From: Eutreptiella sp. 'Long Island Sound 2002'
Lineage: Eukaryota; Euglenozoa; Euglenophyceae; Eutreptiales; Eutreptiaceae
Direction: 5' to 3'
Length of the DNA: 64,000 bases
Assembly (NCBI GenBank): GCA_964036045.1
Contig: OZ038383.1
Span: 93,070,086 to 93,134,085, forward strand
Shown here: positions 13,103 through 64,000 of the stretch, one piece after another
Position numbering within the stretch: position 1 is the stretch's first letter
Layout of the letters: every line of letters begins with the position of its first letter
Made by a program: the position numbers and the translations under genes
Notes under the pieces: model-generated
The model's database searches: none
What the model was told of the DNA's origin: nothing
The model's input: the letters and a program-made list of their open reading frames with translations, nothing else

Positions 13103-16100
13103 CAGTGCCGTGTCGTGGGCAGTGCCGTGTGGTGCTCTGCGGGGGGGGGGGGGGAGGGGGTGGGGGGCCGGCTGCGGCGTCAGCCCCGCATGGCCGGGGG
13201 TCCGCGGCCATCCACCGGCATTGGGAGGGGAGGCGGGGGAGCCACGCGGCCCACGCGTCGCGCCACAGCTCCCAGTCTGGGACGGGGCTCAGGGCCCTGG
13301 GCCCCCGGGGGTCGTCGAGCGGTGCCGGGGGCAGCCGCACCAGATGGACCCCCGTAACGGCGGTGACCTCCTGTGTGCGCAGGAAGGTGTGTACTCCGTC
13401 CCGCGCCGCGGGCGCCGGGAGGGGGGGGCGGGGTACAGGTGTGGCCCCATAGAGGTGGGTGGGGGTGATCCCCAGGATCCGCCCCGAGCCCCCGCGGGAC
13501 GCGACGACGAGGAGGAGGAGGGGGGTGCCAGGGCACTCTTGCCAGAGGACCTGCCCCCTGTGGTGGGCACCCCTGGTCCTGGAGAGGGGGGGGGACAGGT
13601 CTGGGTTAGCCCAGCCGCGGGGCGCGTGCGTCGCCGGTGGGAGGGCGGGGCACCAAGTGGGCTCCCTGGGGAACGCCTCGTAGACGACGGCGTACGGGGG
13701 GGTAGGCCCGGTGCCGTCATACACCGGGTTGGTCGGCCGGGGGCGGGCGGACGCCTCGCCCGCGCCTTCCACGAACACCGTGACCTCGCCCACCTCCAGG
13801 TCCTCGTCCGGCGGGTGTAGAAGGTGGAGCGCCGCATCCAGCTCGGACACTCCCCCCGGGTACGTGGCCCGCGCCTGGTTCAGGTACGGGGCCGCGTCCC
13901 CGGGGTAGCGCGTCCTGAGGGCGTGCAGCAGGGCTGGGGCGCTACTGCGGAGGGACATGGCAGACCCCGCTCCCGTCAGCCGGAGGGCGTCCCCCATGGA
14001 CAGGGGCCGGCCCGACCGATTGGACTCGCGCCACTCCATCCAGTGCCCGTAGAGGGCCGCTTCCGGGCTGATGAGCCCCGGCCGGACGGCGTTCACGATC
14101 CGGTGCATTGCCGGGAGCAACGTAGGGGCTCCCGCTCCGTTCAGGGCGCGGACGGCCGGGAGGGCGGTCTCGTTGAGGAAGGCCCTCGCACTGCCCTCCA
14201 GGTCGCACCGTGCGGCAGCGTGCGCTCCTTTTGCCTCCGCCACCGCGTCCGCCACCAGGCCCCGGACGGCCGCCTCCTGCGCTCTGCGGCGGGCCCTGGC
14301 GTGCCCCGGCCCATCCCCCCGTCGGCGTGGCATGGTGCTGCGGGCTCTGCAAAGGGCGGCGGCGGGTGGGGGATAGGGGGCGAACACGTGCGACAGGTGC
14401 GCAATGGATGTGGGGTCCCGCAGGTGCACGTGGATCCATAGAAGGGCAGCGCCCGCGGGGCCCGCCTGTTCGTGTGAGGGGGTGTGTGCCCCCTCGATGC
14501 GCCGGCGCAAGGCCTCCTCCTCTGTGCGCCTGCGCGGACCTGCGGGAGGTTCGGGCCAGGGGCACGCGGCTACCTGGGTGCACCGCTCGCACCTGTTGGC
14601 GCCTGTCGCTGCTGCGGAGGACACCGTGTCACACTCTCCGCAGAGTCGGCAGGTGTGCGGGAGGTGGGAGGGCGGCAACCAAGGGTCGAGATGGCGGAGC
14701 CAGAGGTCGTCCCACCTCTGTCGGAGGGGGTCCCGGATCTCCAGCAAGCGGGCGCGGACGCGGCGCCGGTAGTCCTTGCCAAGCGTCTTCCGCTGGACCT
14801 CCTGCCACGTGTCGCCGGGGAGGATCCCGTGGTCGTGGAAGGCGGCGATGAGGTCGTCCCACGACGGGCGGGGGTGCCCCTGGTGGGGGCTCGCCATGTA
14901 CACGTGGCGCCCGGTGAGGTGGGGCGTCAGCGCGTCCCATTGGCACCCGTTCGCGGTGTCCCTGTGGAGGAGGGCCAGCAGGGTGCCGTCCGCGACCGCT
15001 TCCCACCCCACTCGCAGCCCTTCGCAGCCGTCCAGCTCCTGGCGCAGCGCGGCTGCGATACCGGTGGGGAACATGAGGAGCAAGGGCCCCTGTGTGTCGC
15101 CCAGCCGGGACAGGGCGTCGTCGTATACCGGCCCCCCCGCTTTGAAGTGCGCCACGGTGAGTTGGGTGGCCCCGTCCTCTGGGGGTTGCCACCGGACGGT
15201 GGCCGCAGCGTGTCCCCACGTGCGTATCTCCGTGGCCCGGAGCACGTTGGCAGTGTGAAGGACGATGCGGGGCGGGACGGGCGTCCTGACGAGTGAGGAT
15301 ACGTCCCCAGCCCATCCCGTTTGCGGCCCTGGGGCCGCCTGCAGCCATCCCCCTGTCGCCGCGTCCCACGGGTGGTCAGGTCCCGCCCCTCGGACCATGG
15401 TGGGTCTCGGCCGGGTGTCCGGCCCCCACCCCCGGAGCGGGATGGCGGCGTATCGTTGCGCAGGGGTCTCCGGGGCGCGCGTGGCGGCGCACCACCGGCC
15501 CCACTCCCGCGCCCACTCCTCTCCCACGATGCGCGCCTCCCATGCGGTCATGGAGCCGCGCCCGATGATCCACGGTGGGAAAAGGGCGTCTTGCAGGTGC
15601 CTCGAGAACCCCCCCGGCAGGTCCTGATACGGGTGGGGGCCCTCTTGGAGTGGGCACTCCAGAGTGCCATTCACAACACGGAGGGAGGCTACGAAGTCCT
15701 TGTCAGGGCGCGGGGGAGGGGGAGGGTGGTCGCCCTCCGCCGCAGTGAGCCACCGGTGCGCCCGGGCCGCCGCGCTTAGGGGGTCGCGGAGGAGTTGCTC
15801 CAGCCGGTGGTTGCGAAGCTCCCACGCGAAGTCCCCTAGCCGGAGCATGTGGTGGAGGAAGTCGTCCACCGAGGTCCCTCCCGGCGGGTCGTATCGGGCT
15901 ATGGCGCGGAGCTGCGCCTCCGCGTCCTCGGGCACCAGTCCGGAGCAGAACACCTCTGTCCACGTGGCGCCTGCGGAGCGCCACGAGGCCACCCACAGGG
16001 CCTTGTCCCCAGGTGGGAGGTGGCGGGCCGCCTCGTGCACCGCCTGGCGGTAGTGGGGCCAGAGGAGCCGCGAGTGGGTGCAGCCCACGTGCATGTGCAC

Positions 16101-19100
16101 CGGGGTCTCTTCCGGGCCGCCGCAGAAAAGGCACGGCTGCGGGAGGATGGCGACGCCGGAGAGCCGCTCCTTCCGGACGCGGAGCCTGCGCTGCACCGGC
16201 GTGTGGCCGTCCCGGGCCCGCAGCGCCCGGCGGTTGGTGGCCGCCGCGGTGAGGTCCCGGGCGTGGACGTAGGCCGTGGCGTGGGCCGCGCCCAGAGGTG
16301 TGTGTCCCCGGTGCGTCAGCGCATGGTCCGTCTGCGCCCGTTGTGCGACCTCGCCGAGCACCCGCATCGTGGGGGGCCGTAGATCGAGATGGCCGTCACG
16401 GCCGGCGACGATGAGTTGGGCGTGGCCAGGGTCCGGGGGCGTGTTCTGCAAGACGGTGTCCTGGGACGCCGCCCAGTCCGCCTTGTGCAGTAGGGCGTCA
16501 CTGTGGTGCGAGGTGGCTCGGACGTACCAGAACGGGTGCCCGGCGTGTTGCCCCCGCGCGCACAGGCCGTCCCGGAGCCACCTCAGGGGCATCTGGTTGA
16601 CCACCTTCGCTGCGCCCGCGGGGACCCCCGTGGTTCGCTCGCGATCTGCGTGCCGTAGGAGGTGGAGGATGACCTCGGCGTCCACCGTGTGGACCCATGG
16701 TCTGTGTGCACCGTAATGTAGGGGGAGGGAGGCGGCCACCCCCTCTCCGTCAGGCACCGTGCCCGAGATGGCCACCGCCCACGTGCGGGTGAGGTCGGCG
16801 GCGAGAGCGACGCTGGTGGCGTGTTTGCAGGGTCCGCCCCCGGATGCGTCAGAGGAGGTGTGTCCCCAGGCCTCCGGGATCCAGTAGTATCCGGTGGGGC
16901 TGAGCCACCCCGCGTTGAGGTCGGTGGAGTGCCACCGGACGTCGGGGTGGCTGTGGGTCAGTTGGTCCATGCTCAGCGCCCTGGTGTCGCCTGGGCTGAT
17001 CGCCGGGTGGTCGTGCAGCCGGATCTCCGCTCCGGCGATGGTGCTTGCCCAGGACCGTAGCGCCGTCACATGTTCCTTGAGCCACGCCGGGCCTCCGCGC
17101 TGGTGTACCACCAAGTGTCCTGTGTCCCCCGGACGGTCCTCCAGCGCGTGCACCGCCATGTGTGGGTCGTGCGGCACCCCCGTAGCCACCAGTAGGGCGG
17201 TGCCACGGGGGAGTCCACGGGGTTCGGGCTGGCCTGCCCCCACTTGCACTATCACCCACTCGGCCCGGAGCTGCGCTTGTCCCGTCGCTTGGGTGCACTG
17301 GTCGTCTGTGGTCACCAGCCACAACGGCGTCGGCGCGTGGGGCCGGGGGCGTAAGGGCTCTGGCCACGCCACGTCCGCGTTGGGCTCTTGGTGCTCGCTT
17401 TCCGCGAGTACGTCGCGGAGGATGTACATGAGGGCCGCCGGCGGGTGGTACGCCGCCCCCCGCGTGGGGGGGGACAGGCCGTTCCGGCGGCGGTAGCCCC
17501 CGACGTGGAGGTGCAGGCCGTCTGGGGTCACCCGTGGGCCGGTGTGGGCGTCCTGCTTAGCCCTCGTGGGGTGGACGAGTCTCAGGCGGGGGTCCCGCGT
17601 GCCGGTGGTGTGGAAGAGGTGGGCCAGGGCATCGCGCCACCCGGGGTGGTTGGTGGGCCCTTGCTCATGGCGGCAGTAATGGAGGTGTTCATCGGCGCAT
17701 TGGTCGAGGCACTCCCGCACCGCCGTCGGCCACGGATCGTCGTTGTCGGGGAAGGGGTGGCGTGGCCCGTGGTGCCCATGCCACGGCGTTGCGTGTGGCA
17801 CCGTCAGGCGGCACGTGTCGCGGTGTCGCAGCTTGGCGGTGCGCAGCGTGACGATTTTGCCTGGCGGGGACTGTAGTTGGACATGAGCCGCCCTGGGGCA
17901 CTCGATGGGGTTGTACAGCCCCACTCCCAGGGCGGCCAGGGCCCGGGGTATGCGCTGGACCCAGTCGCCTCCCGCCAGAGTTGCGAACTCCGGGACGGGG
18001 TAGTGCACCTCAGGGCATATTCCGTGCGCGCCGGCTATCTCCCAGAACATCTTGGTGACCTTCGCGCGCACGGAGGTTGCGCGGTGGTGGACGAGTGTAC
18101 CCACGAGGGCCACCGCCGCCTGCTGGCACCGCGTGGGCACCCGTGTAAGCCCCAGGGTCCGGTCATCCTGCAGGCTGTCCCGCGAGGCGTCGAAGGCGTA
18201 CCGCGCCCTGTCCTTCGCGACCTGGACCGTGATGTGGTCCAGGTGGCGTGCAGTGTCGGAGTCGTCGGCGATGAAAGGGGCGACGTACTGCGTCACCCCT
18301 CCGAGGATCGCCAGGATGACGTCCTGCACCACTTTCGGTGGCGCGAGGGTGTTAAGGCACCAGTGGTGCACTGCCGCCAGGCGTAGCCGGTGCTTGCGCT
18401 GCAGGGAGAACTCCCCGTCCGGCTGCAGCTGGAGTCCCAGGTAGGGGACGGAGTCCGCCGCTGGTACCCAGTGCCACGGGTTTTCCAGGTGGGGGCAGAG
18501 GCGTAGCTGCAGGCCCGGGACCCCCTCCGTGGTGGCCATGGCGCACTTGCGGGGGTTGAGCTCCATGCCCATCATCCCCAGGTACGCGGCCACCGCCTCC
18601 ACGCCCTCGACAAAGTGCTGCAGCGTGTGGGCCACCACCAGCAAATCGTCGATATAGGCCTGGATGAGGCCGTGCTCGGCTCCTCCCGGCGGGCGCAGGC
18701 GGTGCCCCTGTGCCCTGAGTAGAGGCTCCAGGAGGAGCGCGTACAGCAGGGGGCTCTCGGGGTTGCCCTGCCGGACACCGCGTAGCATGTAGACGGGCTG
18801 CGTTAGCCCGTGTGCCGTGACGATGCGCAGCCTGGCGCACGTGTGGAGGAAGAGCAGGAGGTCAATGACGTCCGGCGGCACGGAGAGGTGGCGCAGGATG
18901 AGGTGGAGGGCGCCGTGTGGGGCGGTGTCGAAGGCCTTGCGGGCGTCGAAGGAGAAGACGTAGTTGGGCCTTCCCCGCTGGAGCTGCCGCTGCGCCATGA
19001 ACAGCGGGGGGCCGGTGTTGGAGCCAGGGAGGGCCCCCTGCTGCCAGTCGCTGACCACCCCGTGCCGTGTGAGCACCTCCGTGATGCGCTGGGTGAGGGG

Positions 19101-20396
19101 GCCCGTGAGCAGCTTCATGTCCAGCTGGCCCAGGGCTATGGGCCTGTAGTCGTCCAGTCTGGCAGAGCCCGGTACCTTGGGGCTGAGCCAGATGTGCGCG
19201 TCCCTCCAGTGCATCGGTGGCGGGGCGCCGCGGAGGATGGCCCGGTAGGAGTGGACCAGGAGCCACTGGACGGGTGCCGGGAGGGCCTTGATGAAGCGGG
19301 CCTCCACGTGGTTGGGGCCTGGGGCCTTGCCATCGGCCTTGTCCAGGGCGGACTTCAGGTCCTGCATGGAGTACTGCTGGACCTGTGTCCAGGCTCCCTC
19401 AGGGACCCGGGGGACGTGGCGGCCGAGGACCGCCTGGAAACCCGGGAGGTCCACCGGGCGTTTGTCATACAGTTCTCGCCAGAAGGCGCGAACTGCGAAC
19501 ATCACGTCGTGGGCCTCCGTGAGGAGCGTTTGGGTGTTGGGAACCCGCACGTTCCAGAGGCCTGACGGGCCTGGGGCCTCTACCTCTATGGCTCCCCGCA
19601 CGGCTTTCCACCGCTGGGCGATGTCGGGGGCGTGGCGGCGCCAGAATTCCTTGATGGCGCGCTTGCGGTCTGCCGCCAGGAGGGCGCGGAGCTGGCGAAT
19701 GTCCTCCTCGAGGGCGGCTGCTTGCCTCTCCAGCTCCTCCTGCAGCTGGCCCTGCGTGGTCGGGCGGAACCCGGGCGACACACTCTGCAGTTCCTCCGTG
19801 AGCCGGAGCGCCGCCTCGGACCGGACGCCATGCCTGGCCGCGTCCGCCTGGTACGCTGCCGGGGCGCGCGCTGCCAGGGTGTCATAGCGGAGGACCGCTG
19901 CCTGGAGCTGCTTTCCGCTCTCCGGGGGGTCCCCCTCCGCCGGGTCCGTTCCCGCCGGAGACGGCTGCCGGCGTCCCACCACGCGCGCCAGGGCGTCATG
20001 CGTCGCGTGGAGGTGTTCGAACACCTTGCCCACCGCAGCCGCGGGCATGGACCCGTAGTCGTGCTGCTCTGCGGGACCCAGCCAGGGCGCCAGTGAGGGT
20101 TCATCCTGCGCGGCGGTGACCGTCGCCCACAGGCAGTGTTGGACGGGCGCGGCCTCGGCGTCGTACGGGAGGAGGCGGCCTTCCGTGTGGCTGTAGGGGG
20201 TGGGCATCGCCGCGTGCCCCGCTGCGCTGAGGAGGCCCGGCAGGGCCAGGCGGACCGGGAGGTGGTCCGAGCCGACCACCTGGGGGTGTGCCATGCCGCG
20301 AGCCCAGACGCTCTCCCGCAGGGACCACGGCAGGAGGGGCTCGTTGACCAGGAAAGTGTCCACCCTGTGCTGGGACGGGTGGAGCGTGGGGGTCAT
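12804..20396 (-). CDS. LINE polyprotein: endonuclease tail, reverse transcriptase, RNase H, zinc fingers
   Basis: A single open frame of 2,530 codons. The first 52 residues are only the C-terminal end of an exonuclease/endonuclease/phosphatase (APE) domain, recognisable by GSDHLPVRLAL. The reverse transcriptase spans about residues 370-650, with the FSFDARKAFDTAP block (about 480) and an intact AYIDDLL active site (about 580; 18,641-18,660). RNase H lies at about 1,180-1,310 (SDASGGG, VDAEVILHLL, TSHHSDALLHKADW). A CxxC...H...C finger follows at about 1,425 (CLFCGG ... HMHVGC) and another Cys-rich pair at about 1,910-1,930. More than 600 further residues match nothing I know. After about 13,150, past a poly-proline (C-tract) stretch, the frame turns low-complexity and overlaps the next ORF, so the true end may be there. 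It is exceptionally long for a LINE ORF and has no internal stops, suggesting a young insertion. A TAG lies just upstream of the first ATG. Confidence 0.85.
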   Translation of the reverse strand: MTPTLHPSQHRVDTFLVNEPLLPWSLRESVWARGMAHPQVVGSDHLPVRLALPGLLSAAGHAAMPTPYSHTEGRLLPYDAEAAPVQHCLWATVTAAQDEPSLAPWLGPAEQHDYGSMPAAAVGKVFEHLHATHDALARVVGRRQPSPAGTDPAEGDPPESGKQLQAAVLRYDTLAARAPAAYQADAARHGVRSEAALRLTEELQSVSPGFRPTTQGQLQEELERQAAALEEDIRQLRALLAADRKRAIKEFWRRHAPDIAQRWKAVRGAIEVEAPGPSGLWNVRVPNTQTLLTEAHDVMFAVRAFWRELYDKRPVDLPGFQAVLGRHVPRVPEGAWTQVQQYSMQDLKSALDKADGKAPGPNHVEARFIKALPAPVQWLLVHSYRAILRGAPPPMHWRDAHIWLSPKVPGSARLDDYRPIALGQLDMKLLTGPLTQRITEVLTRHGVVSDWQQGALPGSNTGPPLFMAQRQLQRGRPNYVFSFDARKAFDTAPHGALHLILRHLSVPPDVIDLLLFLHTCARLRIVTAHGLTQPVYMLRGVRQGNPESPLLYALLLEPLLRAQGHRLRPPGGAEHGLIQAYIDDLLVVAHTLQHFVEGVEAVAAYLGMMGMELNPRKCAMATTEGVPGLQLRLCPHLENPWHWVPAADSVPYLGLQLQPDGEFSLQRKHRLRLAAVHHWCLNTLAPPKVVQDVILAILGGVTQYVAPFIADDSDTARHLDHITVQVAKDRARYAFDASRDSLQDDRTLGLTRVPTRCQQAAVALVGTLVHHRATSVRAKVTKMFWEIAGAHGICPEVHYPVPEFATLAGGDWVQRIPRALAALGVGLYNPIECPRAAHVQLQSPPGKIVTLRTAKLRHRDTCRLTVPHATPWHGHHGPRHPFPDNDDPWPTAVRECLDQCADEHLHYCRHEQGPTNHPGWRDALAHLFHTTGTRDPRLRLVHPTRAKQDAHTGPRVTPDGLHLHVGGYRRRNGLSPPTRGAAYHPPAALMYILRDVLAESEHQEPNADVAWPEPLRPRPHAPTPLWLVTTDDQCTQATGQAQLRAEWVIVQVGAGQPEPRGLPRGTALLVATGVPHDPHMAVHALEDRPGDTGHLVVHQRGGPAWLKEHVTALRSWASTIAGAEIRLHDHPAISPGDTRALSMDQLTHSHPDVRWHSTDLNAGWLSPTGYYWIPEAWGHTSSDASGGGPCKHATSVALAADLTRTWAVAISGTVPDGEGVAASLPLHYGAHRPWVHTVDAEVILHLLRHADRERTTGVPAGAAKVVNQMPLRWLRDGLCARGQHAGHPFWYVRATSHHSDALLHKADWAASQDTVLQNTPPDPGHAQLIVAGRDGHLDLRPPTMRVLGEVAQRAQTDHALTHRGHTPLGAAHATAYVHARDLTAAATNRRALRARDGHTPVQRRLRVRKERLSGVAILPQPCLFCGGPEETPVHMHVGCTHSRLLWPHYRQAVHEAARHLPPGDKALWVASWRSAGATWTEVFCSGLVPEDAEAQLRAIARYDPPGGTSVDDFLHHMLRLGDFAWELRNHRLEQLLRDPLSAAARAHRWLTAAEGDHPPPPPRPDKDFVASLRVVNGTLECPLQEGPHPYQDLPGGFSRHLQDALFPPWIIGRGSMTAWEARIVGEEWAREWGRWCAATRAPETPAQRYAAIPLRGWGPDTRPRPTMVRGAGPDHPWDAATGGWLQAAPGPQTGWAGDVSSLVRTPVPPRIVLHTANVLRATEIRTWGHAAATVRWQPPEDGATQLTVAHFKAGGPVYDDALSRLGDTQGPLLLMFPTGIAAALRQELDGCEGLRVGWEAVADGTLLALLHRDTANGCQWDALTPHLTGRHVYMASPHQGHPRPSWDDLIAAFHDHGILPGDTWQEVQRKTLGKDYRRRVRARLLEIRDPLRQRWDDLWLRHLDPWLPPSHLPHTCRLCGECDTVSSAAATGANRCERCTQVAACPWPEPPAGPRRRTEEEALRRRIEGAHTPSHEQAGPAGAALLWIHVHLRDPTSIAHLSHVFAPYPPPAAALCRARSTMPRRRGDGPGHARARRRAQEAAVRGLVADAVAEAKGAHAAARCDLEGSARAFLNETALPAVRALNGAGAPTLLPAMHRIVNAVRPGLISPEAALYGHWMEWRESNRSGRPLSMGDALRLTGAGSAMSLRSSAPALLHALRTRYPGDAAPYLNQARATYPGGVSELDAALHLLHPPDEDLEVGEVTVFVEGAGEASARPRPTNPVYDGTGPTPPYAVVYEAFPREPTWCPALPPATHAPRGWANPDLSPPLSRTRGAHHRGQVLWQECPGTPLLLLVVASRGGSGRILGITPTHLYGATPVPRPPLPAPAARDGVHTFLRTQEVTAVTGVHLVRLPPAPLDDPRGPRALSPVPDWELWRDAWAAWLPRLPSQCRWMAADPRPCGADAAAGPPPPPPPPPQSTTRHCPRHGTDAPGGSGRGAPATTHAYQSDSNGRLRWVPRAGRPPPPPVPLPLPRLLPRVDGGDPRGARGAEAGGGGGGRTAAAGPGTWASRDGRPRRPSGQPRRPAPP

Positions 20397-20429
20397 GTCC
20401 TACTCTCCGCCCGCCGCGGCTCTTGCCCG

Positions 20430-22345
20430 CCGTGCCAAGAGTGGCTGGGTGCAAGCAACGCACGCACACAGCCCAACACCCCAGCCAGGAGTGGCGGGGC
20501 GCAGCCGAAACCCGAGCCCAAACACACACACTCACACCGCGCACCCGTTGCCAGGAGTGGCCGGGTGCAAGCGGAGCACACACACAGCCCAACACCCGAG
20601 CCAGGAGTGGCGGGGCGCAGCCGAAACCCGAGCCCAAACACGCACACCCACAGCGCGCACCCGTGGCCAGGAGAGGCTGGGTGCAAGCGGAGCACGCACA
20701 CAGCCCAACACCCCAGCCAGGAGTGGCGGGGCGCAGCCGAAAGCCGAGCCCAAACACACACACCCACACCGCGCACCCGTGGCCTGGAGTGGCTGGGTGC
20801 AAGCAGAGCACACACACAGCCCGACAGCCCCGCCAGGAGTGGCGGGGCGCAGCCGAGACCCGAGCCCAAACAGACACACCCACACCGCGCACCCGTCGCC
20901 AGGAGTGGCTGGGTGCAAGCGGAGCACACACACAGCCCAACACCCCAGCCAGGAGTGGCGGGGCGCAGCCGAAACCCGAGCCCAAACACACACACCCACA
21001 CCGCGCAGCCGTGCCGAGAGTGGGTGGGTGCATGCGGAGCACGCACACAGCCCAACACCCCAGCCAGGAGTGGCGGGGCGCAGCTGAAACCCGAGACCAA
21101 ACACACACACCCACACCGCGCACCCGTGGCCAGGAGTGGCTGGGTGCAAGCGGAGCAGGCACACAGCCCTACAGCCCAACCAGGAGTGGCGGGGTGCAGC
21201 CGGGACCGGAGCCCAAACACACACAACCACGCCGCGCACCCGTGGCCAGGAGTGGCTGGGTGCAAGCGGAGCACACACACAGCCCAACACCCCAGCCAAG
21301 AGTGGTGGGGCGCAGCCGAAACCCGAGCCCAAACACGCACACCCACACCGCGCACCCGTGGCCAGGAGTGGCTGGGAGCAAGCGGAGCACGCACACAGCC
21401 CAACACCCCAGCCAGGAGTGGTGGGGCGCAGCCGAAACCCGAGCCCAAACACACACACCCTCACCGCGCACCCGTGGCCAGGAGAGGCTGGGTGCAAGCG
21501 CAGCACACACACAGCCCAACACCCCAGCCAGCAGTGGCGGGGCGCAGCCGAAAGCCGAGCCCAAACACACACACCCACACCGCGCACCCGTGGCCATGAG
21601 TGGCTGGGTGCAAGCGGAGCACACACACAGCCCAACACACCAGCCTGGAGTGGTGGGGCGCAGCCGAAACCCGAGCCCAAACACCCACACCCACACCGCG
21701 CACCCGTGCCAGGAGTGGCTGGGTGCAAGCGGAGCACGCACACAGCCCAACACCCCAGCCAGGAGTGGCGGGGCGCAGCCGAAACCCGAGCCAAAACACA
21801 CACACCCACACCGCGCACCCGTGGCAAGGAGTGGCAGGGTGCAAGCGGAGCATACACACAGCCCAACACCCCAGCCAGGAGTGGCTGGGCGCAGCCGAAA
21901 CCCGAGCCCAAACACACACACCCACAACGCGCACCCGTGCCAGGAGTGGCTGGGTGCAAGCGGAGCACGCACACAGCCCAACACCCCAGCCAGGAGTGGC
22001 GGGGCGCAGCCGAAAGCCGAGCCGAAACACACACACCCTCACAGCGCACCCGTGGCCAGGAGTGGCTGGGTGCAAGCGGAGCACACGCACAGCCCAACAC
22101 CCCAGCCAGGAGTGGCGGGGCGCAGCCGAAACCAAAGCCCAAACACGCACACCCACACCGCGCACCCGTGCCAGGAGTGGCTGGGTGCAAGCGGGGCACG
22201 CACACAGCCGAACACCCCAGCCAGGAGTGGCGGGAGGCAGCGGAAACCCGAGTCCAAACACACACACCCACACCGCGCCCCCGTGCCAGGAGTGGCTGGG
22301 TGCAAGCAGAGCACACACACAAGCACACACACACCCCAACACCCC
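20430..22345 (+). repeat. 116-bp minisatellite, right part, about 16 units
   Basis: Tandem units with 116-bp spacing (for example GTGG landmarks at 20,441, 20,557 and 20,673). Each is a dimer of two 58-bp halves (GAGTGGCTGGGTGCAAGC and GAGTGGCGGGGCGCAGCC) separated by CACACACAGCCCAACACCCC-type and CACACCGCGCACCCGTGG-type linkers. Units differ by scattered point changes. Long open frames on both strands are artefacts of a stop-free repeat. This is a contiguous array without unique spacers, so it is not a CRISPR. Confidence 0.95.
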
Positions 22346-22434
22346 AGGCAAGAGTGGCAGGGCGCAGCCGAAACCCGAACCCAACCACAACCCAGACCCA
22401 AACACAAGCGCCACGCAACAGTAGGATACCCAGT

Positions 22435-23520: not shown

Positions 23521-23753
23521 ACGGTACGAAAAATGTCGTTCGTTCATTGCTCTTTCCTCAGGTTGAAGCTGTTGAGCGCTCAGCTGTTTGAGTTGGATTT
23601 GTGGCGGGCAAAATTGGTACTGACCTTGGAGTTCAGCATGTTCTCACTGCAGGGGGCATCGTAAATTCACTGAGACATGCACCTGCTCGAACATTGGGGA
23701 TCCTACAACCTTTGGAGACCAATGAGAACGCAGCAAGAGCAATGCAGCATGAG

Positions 23754-23782
23754 CTTAGGCGGCTCAAGTTGCATGGTCAAAA
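23754..23782 (+). repeat. left terminal inverted repeat of copy A
   Basis: Begins CTTAGGCGGCTCAAGTTGCA and is identical over 29 bp to the reverse complement of 31,447-31,475. The same motif starts copy B (55,971) and copy C (62,660). Confidence 0.9.
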
Positions 23783-25463
23783 ACGAAGGAAAAGGTAGGA
23801 AAATGACAGGTTTCCAAAGGCATCGAAAGATAGTTGTTTTGCTGGATATTTTGAAAGCGTCGCAAACAAGTATGGCGGATTAAATATTTCTGTAAGAATG
23901 ATGTGTCCCATGGGCGAGACAGGGAAAAGTATTGTTTGGTGACCATTCTTTGCGCGAGGCCTCGCGCAATGACGTTCATTTGTGTCAGATTAATGTGCTA
24001 CAGCACGACGCATTAGGCAGGTTGTCGAAAGATGTTTTGTCGAAATATTTATACACGTAACCTAGTACCATTATCAGGGTTGCGTGATAGAGATGGATCT
24101 ATTAACGGATAAACTGCAACAATGGTGTACCCAAGAATCTTGAAAAGTACAAATATTCCGGAACAAACTGCAGTTTCAAGCGCGAGGCCTCGCGCATGGA
24201 ACGGCGCATGAGAAACATTAAAGTTTCGGTGATCATTGCGCGAGGCCTCGCGCAATGGAGGTCAGAAGCGCTCATAGAAACCAAAATTGGAGAGATCCAC
24301 CAACTACACAGCATGTGCATTCCCTTGATGCGGCGCTGCTGCATGGGCGCCCATACAGGTCCCGCCGGCATCTCCCCTTTTCATACTGTGGTCACCGCTG
24401 ACTTCACTGCCCAACAGCGATAGAAGCGCGCCGCAACTTGGTACCGCAATCAGGATTAACTAGTGAAATGTGGGATCACCAGACAGTTACAGGTAACCGA
24501 AAATGGTGCATGCGACGAGCGAATCACAGAATAATTGGTCGCGCGAAAACTGAGTGACAGGTTGATGTTTGAAATCAAGAAAGTTTTTCAAACAGCGATT
24601 TTTACGCAGATACAGTTACGCAATTATTCTTCACAGCAACAATGCCCCTGCGAAAAGAGGTGGACCTTGAGAAGACAGTGGCCGCAGCATCCGGAGTTTT
24701 CCGCGATGTCTGCTCAGAGGAACCGCCGTGCCACAGGGCAGAAGAACTGTGGGAAGGACTAAAACAGGGGGACGAGGGCGCGCGATTGTTGTGTGTGTTT
24801 TTTCTGCGTCTGCGTAAAAATGAACGGACGCGTTGCAGCGTTAAAAAGGCGATTGCGGCAGAGGGCAAGAGATGGGTTGGTGTTTTGATAGAGGAGGCCT
24901 GGCGCCTTTTTTTGCTGGTGCGCCACTGCGCAGTTCCATACCAGGGAAAACCAAAGTCAGTTGTTGCGGTAGAGGGAAGTAGGGCGCATTTTAGCAAGGT
25001 CAGGTCTGGCGCGATACAGCGCACCTTCGCTGAAGGAGAAGGCCGCAGTCAGGTTACAGACTACATGGGACAAAATTTACCAACAGTGGGTTGTGTTGTG
25101 GATGGACAACTGGTACAACAAACAGTTTACAACAAATCCTGACAAGAACGACAAAAGCCTGAACGCAACAGCGTTGGTTGTGTTGCTACTCAAGGATGCA
25201 CCGCGCTACTGGCATGGTCATCCTAGCCTGGAAGACCTTGAACGGCGTGTTCCTGTTGTTGCACGCATGCTGGGAAACACCGAGGGAATGTTTGCACGTA
25301 TCCTGCACGATCTAGGATTTGCAAGCACGCGACCTGTTGTGCGAAACATTAGGGCACCGCTTGACATTATTCGCCCTGTACCTGCCAAGAGACCACATTG
25401 GCGACCCCTTTGTCTAAGCAAAGAAAAGGTAAGCGGCAACCTATCGCTTCTTAACCTACTGCA

Positions 25464-26786
25464 GGTAGGTAGGTAGGTATCTTCGGGAGCTCGGGATGCC
25501 TCCTCTGACGGTGCAGGAAGAAGGTCTTACCAAGGGGCGGTCCTGTCCCTCCCACTGCCCTATGTTAGGTGCCTCTTGAGCCGCTCCTGCATGTGCTTGG
25601 GAAGGCATTGTCGCGGCCACCCGGTCCATGTGTCCCAGGTGGGAGGGTGTCCCCACATGTGTCCATGAGTAGGGCCACATGCCCCCTCCTTCAGGCGGCA
25701 GCTCTGGGGGCTGCCCAGCCGTGTGGAGTATCTCTCACCACAAGGGGTATTGCTCCCGCTTGTCTACGGTACGACCGCCTCACCCTTGTGGCTTGAGTTG
25801 CGGGGCCGCTCCGCTTGGCAGGCGACCCCCTCCTGGACTGTGTACCGGCTCGCCTGTGACCGGTTGCATCCATGGCTCCGGGTGACGTTTGCCATGGTCC
25901 CCGATGCAGCCTGGCCGGGCTCGGACCAGTAGCCTTGGAGTACCGCTCCTGCCACTGGCCCGGTGGGTCGGCTGGGTCGCCCCATTATTGTCCCCCGGCC
26001 GCTCTACGTGTGTGCGGTGTCCTGGGCCTCCCGGCTCCTGTTCACCGTCGTGCCCACTCGGTGTGTTGTTTCGCGTGTGCGGTGTCCTGGGCCTCCCGGC
26101 TCCTGTTCACCGGTGTGCCTGCTCGGTGTGTTGCGTTGGGTGTGCGGTGTCCTGGGCCTCCCGGCTCCTGTTCACCGGTGCGCCCGCTCGGTGTTTTGTG
26201 TTGCGTGTGCGGTGTCCCGGGCCTCCCGGCTCCTGTTCACCGGTGTGCCCGCTCGGTGTGTTGTGTTGGGTGTGCGGTGTCCTGGGCCTCCCGGCTCCTG
26301 TTCACCGGTGTGCCCGCTCGGTGTGTTGTGTTGCGTGTGCGGTGTCCTGGGCCTCCCGGCTCCTGTTCACCGGTGTGCCCGCTCAGTGTGTTGTGTTGCG
26401 TGTGCGGTGTCCTGGGCCTCCCGGCTCCTGTTCACCGGTGTGCCCGCTCGGTGTGTTGTGTGGCGTGTGCGGTGTCCTGGGCCTCCCGGCTCCTGTTCAC
26501 CGGTGTGCCCGCTCGGTGGGTTGTGTGGCGTGTGCGGTGTCCTGGGCCTCCCGGCTCCTGTTCACCGTTGTGCCCGCTCGGTGTGTTGTGTTGCCTGTGC
26601 GGTGTACTGGGCCCCCCTGGCTCCTGTTCACCGGCGCGCCCGCTCGGTGTGTTGTGTTGCGTGTGCGGTGTCCTGGGCCTCCCGGCTCCTGTTCACCGGT
26701 GTGCCCGCTCGGTGTGTTGTGTTGCTGTGCGGGGCGTCGCTGCGGGGCGCTCACTCGTCCATCCGGACGGCGGCTATCGTAGCCTA
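25464..26786 (-). mobile_element. minisatellite retroposon with (TACC)n tail inside ORF1
   Basis: A 1,323-bp insertion flanked by the 15-bp duplication TCTTAACCTACTGCA (25,449-25,463 and 26,787-26,801). Copy B has the uninterrupted target at about 57,680. Read on the minus strand it has a 65-bp minisatellite (about 11 units, 26,010-26,735), a unique 3' part and a (TACC)n tail (25,464-25,480 on the plus strand as GGTAGGTAGGTAGGTA). The architecture matches the 116-bp-minisatellite retroposons in this window, but the 3' domain is different in sequence, so it is a separate family or subfamily. Insertion plus duplication is 1,338 bp, a multiple of three, but stops inside the insert still break ORF1. 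Confidence 0.85.
26010..26735 (-). repeat. 65-bp minisatellite, about 11 units
   Basis: Units spaced 65 bp, marked by CCTGGGCCTCCCGGCTCCTG at 26,021, 26,086, 26,151 and so on to about 26,672. Open frames seen in three frames through the array are artefacts of its lack of stops. Confidence 0.95.
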
Positions 26787-28192
26787 TCTTAACCTACTGC
26801 AATTTACTAGGGACTTGGCGCAGCACAGCCGACCAGTTGTCCCTGTCATATGTGATGAGAACATCCATTACCGCATTGGTGAGATGATGTACGGTGAAAC
26901 GACAACGGGTTGGAACGTCTGGCTTTTTTGGCGTTCACACCCTATATTATCTGGTTTCTGGCACGCGTACAAATTTTGCGTTACACAAACGTTTCGCTCA
27001 TTTTGGCCGATTGTGACTTTTTTCCGTAAGGGTTTGTTGCGCAGCGGTGACACAGTCCCCTGTTTTCCCAAGCTGATCACAATGGAGATAACTGTTGGTG
27101 CACTGCTGTTGGGTATGGGCCCCCACATACGGCGCCTTAACCTAAAATGTCGTTCCCTTGAGCTGGCACGTCCTGCAAATCGGCGAAGTCGCCTCCGTTA
27201 CGCTGTGTGTAAGGCCATGCAGGTTCTGTTAACACAATACTGTCCCATGTTACTGTACCTAGGACACCTCGTTAGGCAGTGCAATTGGGCTCTGGAGACG
27301 GCCAACAAGGGTGTTTTTGCTTCTGAGGGATTGCAGATTGTTATGTGTCTGTTAGACCGTTTGGACATGGGGGAAACACTTTTAAAATACGAACGCACTG
27401 TTGCAACTGCGCTATTGTGCCACACTGCATGGCACACAGCCATGCCTGGACAGGCTTTTGCCGAGGAGTTTTGTGAAAGTCTGTTTTCCAGCCTTGTGAC
27501 AAAGAAGGGCCAGAACAGAGGTGCAGTAACCATTGAAGATGTTGACGATCTGTATCAGCTCATCACTATCCGCAAAGAAGGTCACAGGGTGAACGTCTGT
27601 AAAATCCCCAATTCCTTTGTCAATTCCGTGCGTCAGCGGTTGACTGCTTACTTGAACGCAGAGCGTGTAAATGTGCCTTGGGTTAGGTGGTGTGCTGAGC
27701 CTACTTGTGCAATTCAGGCGCATTGGCCGTGCAGGGGTGTACCTAACTTTCCACCGTCTCTTCTAATTCCAAAGGGTTCTAACCACTACAAACAAGTCCT
27801 TGTGTCTGTGTTGTTGGTGCTAATGCAGCGGGGGCCACTTAAGGCTGGTTTCAAGCGAAAACTGTCGGAGCTGATCCCCCAACGCAGGGTGTTGGAGGAA
27901 CAAAGAGAGGCCGACACGCTGCGAAATGTTCGAAGGAGATCGGACAACATGCAGTGATGCGCGAGGCCTCGCGCAGAAAGCATGAAACAACAGGTTAGTA
28001 CACCCCCTCTCTTGCGCGAGGCCTCGCACAAGGTTGACAGTCAAAAACAGTGCCGAGCCCCTTCAGTTTTGCATTCTCAACCATACTGTACTCGTATTCG
28101 CTAAAAGCACCCCACATATGCATTATCGACGACGACTTTACCCATTTTTAATGTTATGTTTTCTTCAGTACAGGCTTTCTTCTTATCGCAGA

Positions 28193-30977
28193 ATGGCAAG
28201 CCCCGCCCAAAAAACAGCCCAGGAACGAGCAGATACCGACTATGACCCTGGGACCTCGGGATCGGAGGCTGGAACACCAAAGAAGGGGCCTAAGAAGGAG
28301 GAAACACCAGATCCTGGCTTAACCTTGGGTACTGACATCGAGGACCACCTGAAGCCGGGCGGGAGGCAGGTGGAGGTTGAGCTAGACAACGTGAGATTTG
28401 ACCAGGAGGAGACAAAGGGGCAGATGAGACGGAAAGATGCGAAGTTACTGCAGAAGCGTATTGAGTCACTCGAAGCAGCACCGCCAACAGGCCCATTACC
28501 CGTCGTTCTCTGGGAGGATAATAGTATGTTGCCAACCGACTTTTCGCTCTTGTCGTTGCGCGAGCCCTCGCGCAAAGACGTGTCTCATATTTGCAGATGG
28601 CGATTGTTGGTGTTTATCTGGACAGCACAGCGTGGAAGCGGTTGCAAAGATTCGGGAGAAGCGACGCACCGCGTGTCTGGATCTGCAGCAGTGGCATACT
28701 GTATGCATCGCCGATATTCTAAAGCCTACGACACCGTGGGCCTTCCGTGCAAAGCTGGCGGGACAAGCACAAGGAAGCGCACAAGACGTTGAGCCAATTC
28801 CGCTGTATGAGGCAGCAGATAACCCCATTCGATATGTTGAAGCTCAGCGGCGGCGAGGCCTACCTGACACGTACAGCAATCTCAGGATCGCCATTGTGGA
28901 TGCGGTGCAGATGAGTGCCCTGGTTCCAACCGCTGAACTGCAGCAACCTGGTCAATTCGTATGTTAATTAATCGTTGTTTCGGTGCTCTTCGTTGCGCGA
29001 GGCCTCGCGCATAACGTTGTCACTTTCAGGACAAAACGTATAAATTGTGGAAAGATTTTATGACGTTTGCCTACTATACTGGTCCGGAAGCTGTGAAAGG
29101 TCTGCAGAAGTTCGACGACAAAGGGGAGAAAGTCATGAAGAACGCGCTGAAGAAACTAGACGAGATCCTGTTGCCGGAGTTCTACAACAAAGTGGCAGAA
29201 GTGATGCAGGAAGGAAAAACAACCCTTAAATCCTTGCAGAATTCGTTTGACGACATCATCCTTGAGCAATGGGTCTCAATGCATCTGGACCACCCGCACA
29301 ACGGCCAGTACGTTCGACCTGAGAAAGGTGTGTACCATCGACGCAACGTGGGTACCATTTCTGCATCAGTGCGCCGCACTTTCTCCATTTCTGTTCTTTA
29401 GCCAAAGACATGCGGACCCGCAAAGAGGTTGCTGCACTTGGAAGGCCTGCCCTGAAGGTGACTCTTGGTACATGGGGCTATTGGCGTGAGTCTGAACGCA
29501 AAAGTCGCGGTCCATGGCCGGCATGGAAATCCATGATTCGCGCACCACTGTGGCAGGTGGCAGAGAAAGGCAAGCCCGCCTCTCTGAAAATCCTCAACGT
29601 CCAAAAACTCCTGGGTCAAGAGCCTACCAGAAGCCGTGTGGTCCCCCCACCTGCTGGCGTTACTGGTGACTTCAAGACAGTGGAACAGCAGGATCCATCA
29701 CTGTCAAGTCAAACTATCACAGTTAAGGCGACCCGAATCGCAGCGTTGAACCACCAACCCCCGAAGCGGTTCATGGAGATTGACAAGAACCTGATTATCA
29801 TCAACAGCGACATATTTGAACATCTTGCTCCTGAGACAATGTGCCGAGCCTGGCTGTATGAAGAGATGGCGCGTGCCGATACCCTTATTCGCGGCTCCAA
29901 AACAGTTGTTGACAACATGTTCAATGTGCTGGAGACGCAAACAGAGAGGCGTCTCAACGATGATTTCAACGCGCCGCGCATTGGCCACATGTTGCTTATT
30001 GCCATCTTCAGTTGGCCAGTCAAACCGAAGCCTGCAGGGAATCTTACAACGTTTGACGTTCGCTGGTTGCTGATTGCGTCACCAGATAGCTGGTTGAGGA
30101 AGGTATAATTCCCTCATTACGTCCGCTCTTTGCGCGAGGCCTCGCGCAATAACTTCTCCCTCATTGCAGATTCAGAATTATCTGACGTTTGGACCTACTC
30201 TGGTAGAGGAGATGGATCCTGTTGAATTGGGCGGTCACCTTCCGAAACCGACGGTTATGCGGTATTTCAACACTCACCTCTTTCACCTGAAGCAGGATAA
30301 GACCTTCAAGCCTGCGTGTGTTCATTGATCATCAGCCGGATCTGGTGTGCAAGATCGCGTCCGTCAAGCGGGATTCTCGCATGTACCTTCTTGGTGTTAC
30401 CTCCGACAATCTCTCCGATTGGGTCAACAGAGTGCAGACTCAGTTGAACCATGTATTGACACAAGAGTGGAAACTGCACGCGTCTGGTGATTGGGACCAG
30501 CAAGCCAACTGGGCAAACCGTGGTATTCCCCCTTGGGTTTGCGATGACAAGGTGGGTTATGAGGCGTTGTCGCTGAAGGAGGAAGAGACTGTTGAGAAAG
30601 GTCAAGCTGCAGAAGCACTGGCCCCTGCAAAGCGGAAGTCTACTGGTGGGGAACCAGCCCCCAAGAAGAAGAAGACTGCCTCCAAGCCTCAGGCAGCGAA
30701 GTCGGTTACCGGTGCGGAATCCGACGAGAGCGTTGGGGATGAAGAGGAGGAGAGCGGGGAAGAAGAGGAGGAGGAAGCGCAGGTCTCCCAGGGCAAGGCA
30801 GCGAAGAACGTGGCAGCGAAGCCAAGGTCCGAGGAAACCGGGGCCCGAGCTCCATTCAAGCAGCCAGCCTGTCAGTCCCAACCAAGAAGCGCGCCCGCAA
30901 AGCCACCTCCTAAGGGTAACACGTCCGATGCTAAGGCTATGGGTTCTAAGATGCAAACTGTTCCGAAGAAAAAGTAA
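28193..30977 (+). CDS. copy A ORF2: ParB-like-motif protein with charged tail, four introns
   Basis: Starts at ATG 28,193 (MASPAQKTAQ). Exons: 28,193-28,523, 28,597-28,958, 29,030-29,327, 29,402-30,102 and 30,170-30,977; introns of 73, 71, 74 and 67 nt, all GT...AG, each keeping the frame. Splicing intron 1 gives ...LWEDNNGDCWCLSGQHSVEA: the GQHS motif, followed by a helix-like KIREKRR stretch, resembles the DGQHR signature of ParB/DGQHR-domain proteins. The middle region (VTLGTWGYW, VTGDFKTVEQQD, FDVRWLLIASPDSWLRK) is unrecognised. The C-terminus has KKKK clusters, an acidic run (EEEESGEEEEEEA) and another basic end, typical of nuclear, DNA-associated proteins. One frameshift near 30,320 breaks copy A's last exon; copy B is in frame there. 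Introns 1, 2 and 4 each contain the palindrome. Intact length would be about 830 residues. Function is inferred only. Confidence 0.65.
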
Positions 30978-31446
30978 TTTCTTCGCTTGTTCTGATATAT
31001 TATGCGCGAGGGCTCGCGCTATGCATCCCTCTTCGACGACCTTTTTGCTGTCACCTTGTGCGGCACATTTTTCTCTGTGATGCATTTTTTTGCGCTGTTG
31101 TGTTGGTGTTTGCGCGAGGCCTCGCGCAAAGAAGGGGTGCCAAAAAATGCTTCCTGTCGTGCAGCGTGCAACATGGTTTTCGAAAACTGGTTTTCCAAAA
31201 GATTGAAAGCTCACGGTTGTTTTTACTGCAAGGCATAAATGGTATAGGAAACAAAAAGTCGTGGTCTCAAAAAAGAACTTCATTTTGGTGGAAATAAATC
31301 ATTTTCCCGGGCAGTCGGTGTTGTTGAAAATAAAGGAAAATGGACCAGTTAATTGCTTTTCACGGGATTTTTGGTTGTTGCGTTTTATGTCCCCCCCCAA
31401 AAGGACTATTTTCCCGCAGTGCCGTGGAGAGGCAGTTTTGGGCCCA

Positions 31447-31475
31447 TTTTGACCATGCAACTTGAGCCGCCTAAG
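31447..31475 (-). repeat. right terminal inverted repeat of copy A
   Basis: Ends ...TTGAGCCGCCTAAG, the exact reverse complement of the left end, and is followed by the ATGAG duplication. Confidence 0.9.
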
Positions 31476-32299
31476 ATGAGCAGAAAAAGGCTGTTCACTG
31501 GGAGCCCTGGCAGAGCCCAGTGAAAACGGGAACAACAACCGTGAAAATTGCAGACCCCATTAACCCCAATGCCGTGCGGACACTGCTTGCCCTCGAGGAA
31601 AAAGCAATAAGGACGGAAACACCAAAGAGTAATGCAAAAAGTAATGAAAAAAGCGAACCGACAAAAGCAGCACCACCAGCCACCAGAAAACGCAAGTGGG
31701 AATCTGAGTCTGAAAACGAGGAGTCGGAGGACCCTGAGAAGGATGAAGGTGAAGACGAGGAAGAGGAGAATGACAGTGATGCCAGCGATGAAGGCGTCAC
31801 CATAAAAACTCCAGCCAAAGGAATGAAGTGGTCGTATGTCCCATAGCAGGCGGAGGCCACTGACGAATGGAAGGTCGCACCAGGGATTGCTCGTCGATTT
31901 TATGAGCCTAGAGGAACGAAAGTATCTGACGAACTAGTGGCTGAAGCGGAGCGGACTAAGAGCACTATCCATTGGCTTCCTGACGATGGGACTGACAAGA
32001 GCTGGAACGTGGAAGGTCAATACCTTGCTGCTCGCATCGCGTTTCGCACTCCCAAAAGAGCCGAGCTTTACTGCAAAGGCATGACGCTGGCACTAAAGAA
32101 GCGCAAAATGAAGGAACAGCAGCAGAAGGAGCGCAAAACCCGCAAGGCACGCAAGGCAGAAGCTGCTGCAGAACCAGCTGCACCACCAGCACCAGCTGCA
32201 GATCAAGAAAAGCCCGAGGAACAAGAAGACAAGGTGTCAGAAGGTGCGGGTGCGAATGGTGCAGCGCCTGATGGTGCAGAGCCCAACTGAACGTATCTA

Positions 32300-34632: not shown

Positions 34633-35582
34633 GTAGGTAGATAGGTGCACTCGGTCGTGGAGAGGCGCCCCATGGTTCCCCCTGGCGTCGCCCCTGTGAT
34701 GAACAGAAAGAGGCTGCGCGCATGAAGAGGGGAGGCGGCTTACATCCCGCTAGACGTGACTGGTGGCCCCCAACAAAGCGGCCCCGGGGAACACCGGGAG
34801 GGCTGATCGCCGCCAGCGTGACATGCTTGTCTCGCCAGGAGGGTGTGCCCCCGTGCTTGCGCACGTCCCCTCCTTTGGGCGGAACCCTAGAGGTTCACCG
34901 GACTTCCTGGCGCATCCCGTTCCCAAGGCATACATGCATGTTCCTGGTACTGGGGTTCCGGAGCGCTTGGGTGTCGCACGCTCGACCTCGAGTCCCAAAG
35001 CAGCGCTGGCCTTAGGATGCAGCCTTACCCCCGGTCTCCAGATCTCGTTTGGCCGGGTCACCTGCATGGCACGGGCTGCCTCAGTGCCCGGGCTATGGAC
35101 ACAGGATTTCCTACTGTTGTGTGGCGCTTGTGTTTGGGTCTGGGTTGTGGTTGGGCTCCGGTTTTGGCTGCGCCCTGCCACTGCTGGCTGGGGTGTTGGG
35201 GTGTGTGTGTGTTTGCGTGCGCGCTCTGCCTGCACCCAGCCACTCCTGGCCGGCGTGTGCGGTGTGGGTGTGTGTGCTTGGGCTCGGGTTTCGGCTGCGA
35301 CCTGCCACCCCTGGCTGGGGTGTTGGGGCCTGTGTGTGTTTGTGTGCGCACCTCGCTTGTACCCCGCCACTCCTGGCTGGCGTGTGCGGTGTGGGTGGGT
35401 GTGTTTGGGCTCCGGTTTGGGCTGCGCCCTGCCACTCCTGGCTGGGGTGTTGGGGCCTGTGTGTGCTTTTGTGGGCGCTCTGCTTGTACCCCGCCACTCC
35501 TGGCTGGGGTGTGCCGTGCGGGTGTGTGTGCTTGGGCTCGGGTTTTGACTGCGCCCCGCCACTCCTGGCTTGATGGATTGTC
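34633..35582 (-). mobile_element. minisatellite retroposon, 5'-truncated, minus strand
   Basis: A 950-bp insertion flanked by the 14-bp duplication AATGAACACCTACA (34,619-34,632 and 35,583-35,596). On the minus strand it has about four diverged minisatellite units (35,130-35,575), then the same 3' domain as 22,435-22,880, then a short CTATCTACCTAC tail. It demonstrates that the 3' domain plus part of the array moves as a unit with retroposition hallmarks. No protein is supported. Confidence 0.88.
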
Positions 35583-55970: not shown

Positions 55971-56857
55971 CGGGCGGCTCAAGTTGCAGGGTCAAAAACA
56001 ACAGAAAAGGTAGGAAAAAGACAGTTTTCAAATTGCATCAAATGATAATTATTTTGACGGATATGTGTAGCACGTCGTAAACCATTGTAATGAAATGAAT
56101 ATTGTCGTTGAAGTGACACATCCCATCGGTTTGCTACATGAAATCATTGTTTTGTGTCCATTCTTTGCGCGAGGCCTCGCGCAAAGGGGAACATTTGTGT
56201 TAGATTAATGTACTACAACGCAATGCATTAGACAGGTTGTAGCAAAAGAGAACCTTGACGTCTGTATACACGTAACGTTGTATCATTATCAGGATGGAGT
56301 GATAGAAATGGATATGCTAATAAATAAATTTTCATTTTACTACACGTGGTAATCTTTAAATGTATAAATGTTACGGAAGAAACGGTAGTTTCATGCGCGA
56401 GGACTCGAGCATGGAATGGCGCATGAGGAACTCTAAATTTTCAGTGATGTTTATGCGACGCCTGGTGCAACGGAGGTCATGAGCGGGCATAGAAACAGGG
56501 AATGGACACATCCACCAAACAAACAGCATGTACATTCCCTTTGATGCGGCGCTGCTTCATTGCCGGCCCTACAGGTCCTGCCGGCATCTCTAGTTTTCAT
56601 ACTATGGTCACCAATGACTTCACTGCCAAACAGCGATGGTAGCACGCCGCAACTGGCTACCGCAGTCAGGATAAACCTGTTAAATGTGGGACCAGCAGAC
56701 AGTTACATTGAACCAAAAATGGCGCATGTCACCAGCGAATCATTGAATAGTGGTTTGCGCGAAGACTGTGTGACAGGTTGATGTCTCAAGCAGGACACTT
56801 TTTCGAACAGCGATATCTAGGAACACACATTTGCGCAATTTTTTTTTCACAGTAACA

Positions 56858-58834: not shown

Positions 58835-59064
58835 TATGCAAGGCCTCGCACAAACAGCGTGCAACAACAGGTTTATACACCCCCTCTCTTCCGCGACGCC
58901 TCGCGCAAGGTTGTTAGCAAAAAAAAGTTGCGGTACCTCTCAGTTTTGCATTCCGAACAATACCGTACCCGTTTTTGCCAAAAGAGCGTCATATATTCTT
59001 TCTTGCGTTTTTCACCTTTTTTACTGCTTCGTTCCTTGCACAACAGGCCTCCCCCTTATCGCAG

Positions 59065-61807: not shown

Positions 61808-62255
61808 CTTCTTCGTTTATTGTGATATATTATGCGCCAGTGCTCGCGTTAGTCATTGTTTTTCGACGAATTTTTTGCTGTTACTTTTTTTGTCACATTT
61901 CCACATGTGATGCATTTTACTGCATTGTTGTGCTGACGTTTGCGCGAGGCCTCGCGCAAAGAGGGGTGTAAAAATGCTTCTTGTAGTGCTGCCTGCAACA
62001 TGCATTTTAAAATCTGTCTTTGGAAAGAATTAAGAGTTGATCGGCATTTTCATACGAAAGTACAAATGGTAGAACAAACATAAAGTCCTGGTGCTCGAGA
62101 AAAAGCAGTGCATTCTTAGCTAGATAGATTTTTTCTTGATGCATTCGGCTCTTTGAAAAACAAACCAAAACGGTCCAAGGTATCAATTTTGGACTAGAAT
62201 CCGAGACTCTTTCTTTTTGGGCCCCCCAACCAACTATTTTCCCTAGGTGCTGCCG

Positions 62256-63420: not shown

Positions 63421-64000
63421 CACGGAAGCAACGAGTACCTAAATTGTTGTTGAGTCATTGAAATTTACCAGAAGCTTGCCCCCCCCGGAGGCGGAAAAAC
63501 TCTTTTTAGGCTTGGTCAGCCCCTGTGCTTGGCAGACTGCTTCCCCCAGGGCACCTTCTTTTGAAGCGGTACCCAGAACCCCATGACCATGGTGGGGTAT
63601 ACAACCGGTCTCCGTGTGCCCACTAACCCCATGTACGGAGGGGAAGACGCCCGGTGAAGCCAGGTGAGAGCCCGGCAGGAGCGTGTCCCTTGCCGTAAAG
63701 CCCCCGTGACGGCATTCCGGCCACTTGGGGCATGTTACCATGTACCGGCAAACTGCCATTTGCCGGTATCTTACTATTTCACGCCAATCTGCCCCGCACC
63801 GCCTTCGGCCGTCGATTCGGCAACCTAACCCTAACAACAGATGTAGGTAAGACGTGTTTGTCTGAGAGATCTGGGCATTTCAGCTATTAGCGGCCGCATC
63901 GGCAACCGATGCGTCGCCCGCTGAGATTTACACATCAGAATATCAGGAATCAACAGGGTTTTATTTTCATATTGTTTCCGTCAATTTTCACGCTTCCGTT
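63421..64000. other. non-coding right edge with LTR-like start
   Basis: TGAAGCGGTACCCAGAACC at 63,562-63,580 is identical to the first 19 bases of the 18-kb element's 3' LTR, but the following sequence differs. It may be the start of a related LTR element that continues beyond the window. No gene is supported. Confidence 0.3.

Follow-up and report, generated by a model that had tools for sequence, protein, structure and literature searches.

A two-gene DNA transposon with 5-bp target duplications and ten non-coding palindromes, a candidate new superfamily, in the euglenophyte Eutreptiella

The element and the closest described systems

The element reported here occupies positions 23754-31475 (+ strand) of a 64,000-nucleotide stretch of contig OZ038383.1 of Eutreptiella sp. 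'Long Island Sound 2002', the whole of which we call the window, and it carries two genes, open reading frame 1 (ORF1) and ORF2, together with a set of palindromes that lie outside the coding sequence. Among described systems, Mutator elements create target-site duplications of 8-11 bp, the parS site of ParB-parS systems is a 16-bp palindrome, and Transib elements create 5-bp duplications, a length that the present element matches. The nearest working analogy is VANDAL/VANC of Arabidopsis, a Mutator-like system with anti-silencing (VANC) proteins that also has a second, intron-bearing gene and a motif that is repeated in non-coding DNA and rare elsewhere in the genome (PMC5735166 and PMC10398659). 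Specifically, VANC21 is described as binding a short motif mainly in the non-coding regions of its element, including introns and upstream parts (PMC5735166). A comparable pattern is found here, with a motif repeated 10 times per element, none of the sites coding, and all sites in the window confined to related elements. There are several differences, however. The VANDAL motifs are short, tandem, in the same orientation and fast in their turnover, whereas here a 16-18-bp palindrome is constant between subfamilies whose ORF1 proteins are only 46% alike, and no homology was found between VANC proteins and the proteins of the element.

Two further groups deserve comparison. Members of the CMCT clade (Transib, EnSpm and Plavaka) make duplications of 2-5 bp and mostly have CA..TG termini (PMC12730594). 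The element resembles them in duplication length and in what would be a DDE-type transposase with a long insertion, but it differs in having no CxxC between the second D and the E, in its CTTAG termini and in the absence of a Pfam match. The KDZ elements (Kyakuja, Dileera, Zisupton) and Dada are likewise large eukaryotic elements with extra genes; Zisupton differs in its 8-bp duplications (PMC12730594) versus 5 bp in all readable copies here, and Pfam again gives no match. No account of the element was found in the open-licence literature searched.

In our judgement the chances are evenly balanced that this is an autonomous-type cut-and-paste transposon from a candidate new superfamily, in which ORF1 would be the transposase and the ORF2 product would bind the palindromes. 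Should ORF1 prove to be a transposase that belongs to no described group, the element would represent a new eukaryotic DNA transposon superfamily that has recently been active in a 2.28-Gb genome.

Ends, duplications and mobility

The window element, as delimited by its ends, its duplication and comparison with other copies, is 7,722 bp long, or 6,384 bp without a nested insert. Its terminal inverted repeats (TIRs), the left one CTTAGGCGGCTCAAGTTGCATGGTCAAAA at 23754-23782 (+) and the right one at 31447-31475 (-), match at 29/29 bases, and the 5-bp duplication ATGAG borders the element at both ends (23749-23753 and 31476-31480). An earlier note on this stretch had described these perfect repeats and this duplication correctly, and its account of a TIR transposon carrying a pair of genes, of which one has four introns, agrees with what is seen in intact copies and in a second subfamily. 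Its description of the element as complete holds for the ends and fails for the genes, as both ORF1 and ORF2 are broken in the window copy. The note had further treated a restored reading frame as proof of insertion. The frames on either side do join (MQHE|QKKAVHW) once the element and one duplication are removed, and the joined frame runs from an in-frame stop through 54 open codons on the upstream side and 121 on the downstream side to a TAG, but this is weak proof by itself.

The real proof of mobility is provided by the duplications of other copies, whose alignment the earlier note had proposed. The genome, comprising 2.28 Gb in 2,205 contigs, was searched with the left 601 bp of the element, and 40 matches were scored of 1,557 candidates, both counts being lower bounds; other copies among these scored left-end matches show 95-96% identity. 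Twenty further copies of the same family, termed family 1, were taken from this genome at 9 kb each. Both TIRs lie inside the 9 kb in 12/20, and in the other 8/20 no right TIR with up to 6 mismatches was found within that distance. For one of the 12 two-ended copies (L018) the sequence taken does not include the left flank, which leaves 11 with both flanks readable. All 11 carry a 5-bp duplication, each of them different (cctaa, tagaa, tcaac, ctata, ttcaa, aatag, caaga, caagt, cgtaa, tagta and aaatg). Because 11/11 readable copies carry such duplications, the status of this element as a TIR DNA transposon of the cut-and-paste type, with a 5-bp stagger, is far beyond chance. Ten of the 11 are ~6.25-6.4 kb in size, the remaining one (L027) being a 3.5-kb deletion form, and the intact copies, about 6.4 kb long, encode both ORF1 and ORF2. 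Full copies of family 1 are mostly 95-98% identical to one another.

A second subfamily is present in the same genome, with an ORF1 that is 46% identical to that of family 1 and with a different TIR (CTTAGCCCACGCAAACTGCACCC). A search with its ORF1 gave 68 scored matches of 8,464 candidates, 48/68 sharing one score. The three copies of subfamily 2 that were fetched are 6,847-6,860 bp long and all have 5-bp duplications (ttttt, atacg and ataca), and the termini are CTTAG..CTAAG in both autonomous subfamilies. One pair among them shows 99.84% identity across 6,869 bp, and therefore subfamily 2 has moved recently. A 5-bp duplication also flanks the one non-autonomous member with both ends (1/1), described below. 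The element family is thus recently mobile.

ORF1 as the probable transposase

ORF1 (24642-27957, + strand, broken in the window copy) is a single exon encoding 661 residues from its ATG in intact copies, and it is open over 684 codons from stop to stop in 6/11 full-length copies (L009, L015, L020, L021, L022 and L025). A homology search with ORF1 returned 90 proteins, the majority at 80-99% identity and one set at ~46%. Relatives from another source (label lgn), P0084 and P0092, are 39% and 35% identical and sit on contigs of 1,935 and 1,434 bases, respectively. Residues D158, D295 and E452 are kept in three long or partial relatives, the glutamate wherever sequence exists, and the spacing from the second D to the E is 157 residues in 3/3. 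Two structure models of ORF1 are poor (predicted local distance difference test scores, pLDDT, of 42.8 and 40.3), and in both a strand lies directly before each D. From the conservation of ORF1, the invariant D158/D295/E452 and the strands at both aspartates in these poor models, we infer that ORF1 is probably the transposase. It would be a DDE/RNase H-like enzyme with D158, D295 and E452 as its likely catalytic residues, and it would cut at the CTTAG ends and join these to target sites opened with a stagger of 5 bp.

Several observations tell against this assignment. ORF1 shows no match to any known transposase family in Pfam, NCBIfam or PDB sequences. The folding that the earlier note had recommended was carried out, and the resulting models are of too low a quality to reveal an RNase H fold or to permit the comparison with RNase H-fold transposases that it had in mind. 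The three codon positions of ORF1 have changed alike among copies (1.6, 1.4 and 1.7%), so no selection on the protein is seen, which is what copies that drift once inserted should show. Finally, the roles could be swapped, with ORF1 the accessory protein and ORF2 the enzyme.

An alternative to a new superfamily is that the element represents a diverged branch of a known one, for example hAT5 or the CMCT clade to which Transib belongs, and that profile searches with single sequences are too insensitive to place it. The order of strands and helices in ORF1, its two aspartates and the long helical stretch before the glutamate are like those of several DDE groups, again as read from the poor models, and Transib-related groups make 2-5-bp and hAT5 elements 5-bp duplications (PMC12730594). 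However, Pfam gave nothing at E 10 for P0001, P0084 and P0092 and a chance match only for P0075, no hAT profile appeared in the Pfam scans of ORF1, and the termini are CTTAG..CTAAG, not CA..TG. A CxxC between the second D and the E was likewise found in none of P0001, P0075 and P0084, with E452 and its equivalents taken as the E. A search of ORF1 against PDB sequences (two matches, E 1.2 and 1.3) and the NCBIfam search of the element's proteins (best E 0.08) yielded nothing significant. Transib and hAT5 are the nearest by duplication length, but because profiles give no match, the CxxC is absent and the termini differ, the element should not be filed with either of them, and a hidden membership of a described superfamily is a possibility that we lean against. 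The view of the earlier note that no superfamily is recognisable stands as far as Pfam, NCBIfam, PDB sequences and PHROGs reach, and in the first three of these neither ORF1 nor ORF2 has a significant match.

A viral or phage origin was rejected, as ORF1 has no match in phage records and none of its 15 pattern matches in viral contigs was confirmed. Nine pattern matches of ORF1 in prokaryote genomes were also not confirmed.

Palindromes and the proposed role of ORF2

The more unusual part of the element, which the earlier note did not mention, is a long exact site that is constant across subfamilies with different TIRs. Allowing up to one mismatch, the palindrome GCGCGAGGCCTCGCGC has 10 sites in the window element, 7 exact and 3 with one mismatch. 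Three lie upstream of ORF1 (23952-23967, 24180-24195 and 24238-24253), two are intergenic (27959-27974, and 28014-28029 with one mismatch), three are in ORF2 introns (28558-28573 in intron 1 with one mismatch, 28995-29010 in intron 2 and 30132-30147 in intron 4), and two are downstream (31004-31019 with one mismatch, and 31112-31127). Each of the 3 subfamily-2 copies also has 10 palindromes within the element; the extra ones that L052 shows outside the element belong to a neighbour bearing the right TIR of family 1. The same compartments are occupied in the same 3-2-3-2 layout in both subfamilies, while the introns that bear a palindrome differ (1, 2 and 4 in family 1 versus 2, 3 and 4 in subfamily 2), as do the flanking bases, mostly TT..AA in the former and AGT..ACT in the latter. 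In each subfamily 0/10 palindromes touch coding sequence, even though this makes up 70% and 68% of the elements. Random independent placement would give 5.6e-6 and 1.1e-5, values that are a rough yardstick since the sites are inherited and the coding sequence is constrained.

Nearly all DNA matches between family 1 and subfamily 2 are in fact palindromes, and the exact 20-mer TTGCGCGAGGCCTCGCGCAA occurs 3,979 times genome-wide versus 0 for the reversed control. Within the window, every GCGCGAGGCCTCGCGC site at up to 2 mismatches lies inside one of three related elements: the main one, a decayed second copy and a third at 62660. Among 10 of the 11 copies (L015 being left out), 19/1,593 palindrome columns are variable versus 309/16,820 other non-coding columns, and the difference is clearer for CpGs, of which 10/778 vary inside palindromes versus 54/1,639 at other non-coding CpGs.

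The palindromes are also kept by a non-autonomous member. This 1,709-bp element (L055/L056) is flanked by the duplication CAAGT, has the family-1 TIR with 0 and 2 mismatches and four palindromes, 3 exact and one with a single mismatch, and it shows no match to ORF1 or ORF2. Compared as DNA (word size 7, E 0.01), it shares with family 1 the TIRs, the palindromes and a single marginal match of 20 bp, and with subfamily 2 short palindrome matches only. Its DNA is otherwise unrelated to that of the autonomous elements, so that the palindromes, together with the ends, are what is retained in cis. The third element in the window (62660-63561, +), which the earlier note had also not reported, is a truncated member of this type, with a left TIR (2 mismatches) and palindromes but without a transposase, and is 93% identical over 902 bp to the 1,709-bp family.

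ORF2 of intact copies encodes 833 residues in five exons, separated by GT-AG introns of 73, 71, 74 and 67 nt. On the window these exons, read from copy L009, fall at 28193-28523, 28597-28958, 29030-29327, 29402-30102 and 30170-30977 (all +); the fifth codes for an acidic/basic low-complexity tail and is frameshifted in the window copy. Splicing by GT-AG pattern was applied to 10 copies, 7 of which missed the exact pattern and were not judged; the spliced product is 833 residues in L009 and L020 and is shortened to 790 in L022. These introns are predictions read from DNA, and they are backed both by aligned intact copies and by the ORF2 of subfamily 2 (879-881 residues, about 27-43% identical depending on the stretch), whose four introns of 69, 73, 71 and 97 nt are in corresponding places. 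A full-length homology search returned 2 proteins, each covering the later part of ORF2 only. Residues 1-564 gave two matches against PDB sequences (E 0.81 and 2), neither significant, and the best Pfam match on a piece of the element, DUF4746 on the acidic tail (E 0.0015), is under its cut-off.

The joint conservation of ORF2 and the sites suggests for ORF2 the role of an accessory protein with several domains, the N-terminal one ParB-like, that would bind DNA at the palindromes (core TGCGCGAGGCCTCGCGCA) across the non-coding part of the element. Once bound, it might assemble the element for transposition, or it might keep the chromatin active as VANC does for VANDAL. A competing explanation, which we think somewhat unlikely, is that the ORF1 transposase itself binds or assembles at the palindromes, as at the subterminal repeats of other elements, and that ORF2 serves, for example, in targeting or nuclear transport. 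The non-autonomous member fits this, as it retains TIRs and four palindromes without any ORF match, which is as expected of sites that transposition needs. However, the palindromes are spread over the whole element, including ORF2 introns and the intergenic region, well beyond the ends, and their core is unchanged between subfamilies whose TIRs differ.

Recognition of the palindromes by ORF2 would also accord with a resemblance of its N-terminus to ParB, which we regard as a weak to moderate lead. The alignment of this N-terminus with the N-terminal domain of ParB stays in register as far as a GxRR/GQH motif, exon 1 encoding the first half of the ParB-like region and exon 2 the second half with the GQH motif. 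With both subfamilies taken together, hhalign gives E 0.0012 and 0.01, with 0/300 shuffles as good in each case. In a ParB comparison of windows, the domain scores 20.2 versus at most 15.4 for other ORF2 windows and 14.6 for ORF1 windows. Other results speak against the resemblance. Family-1 ORF2 alone reaches E 0.018 and is matched by 2/400 shuffles, against 13 ParBs it reaches E 0.05 with 13/400 shuffles as good, and the hhalign probabilities for both subfamilies together are only 19.7% and 4.2%. Pfam scans call no ParB and no ParB helix-turn-helix in ORF2, PHROGs gives ParB-like at E 0.3 as the fourth of five chance-level matches, and tblastn in phages gives one match at E 6.

A more specific version, in which the new superfamily has its own ParB-parS-like system, with a ParB-fold accessory protein on ten palindromes packaging the element or marking it, either for transposition or against silencing, and with non-autonomous relatives that keep only ends and sites, is in our view unlikely. 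The similarity is modest, no ParB helix-turn-helix (Pfam) or ParA partner was found, and this is a eukaryotic transposon. The idea that the palindromes serve RNA or the host, as hairpins in introns and untranslated regions or as CpG-rich sites for a host factor, agrees with their CpG-rich composition, their location in introns and untranslated parts and the lower variation of their CpGs, but it is quite improbable given that no palindrome lies outside the three related elements in the window and that they also occur in a non-autonomous member without matching genes. What the palindromes make testable is whether transposons outside plants have a VANC-like protein-and-site system, or a borrowed ParB-like one.

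State of the window copy and its surroundings

Apart from the insert, identity between the window copy and the intact copy L009 is 96.8-96.9%. ORF1 of the window copy is broken by a frameshift before about 25139 and by a nested insert of 1,338 bp (25464-26801, counting one copy of the duplication), which is flanked by two copies of the 13-bp TTAACCTACTGCA at 25451-25463 and 26789-26801 and contains a 65-bp minisatellite in 11 copies (26010-26732). The insert is not present in the intact copies or in the second window copy, and it is possibly a separate mobile element with a 13-bp duplication. An alternative reading of this internal stretch of ORF1 as a family intron was rejected, as the intact copies have no such sequence.

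The second window copy of the same family (55973-62114, +), also absent from the earlier note, is decayed, lacks its right end and is 78.7% identical to L009. The gene or pseudogene that is split by the main element (23593-23753 and 31481-32290) has an acidic, lysine-rich tail. Two minisatellite arrays, at 20430-22389 (116-bp units) and 35146-35570 (127-bp units), are related and inverted and lie ~12 kb apart. Finally, the minus strand at 12804-20399 holds an open frame of 2,531 residues that, judged by eye, has the look of a reverse transcriptase of the long interspersed nuclear element (LINE) type.

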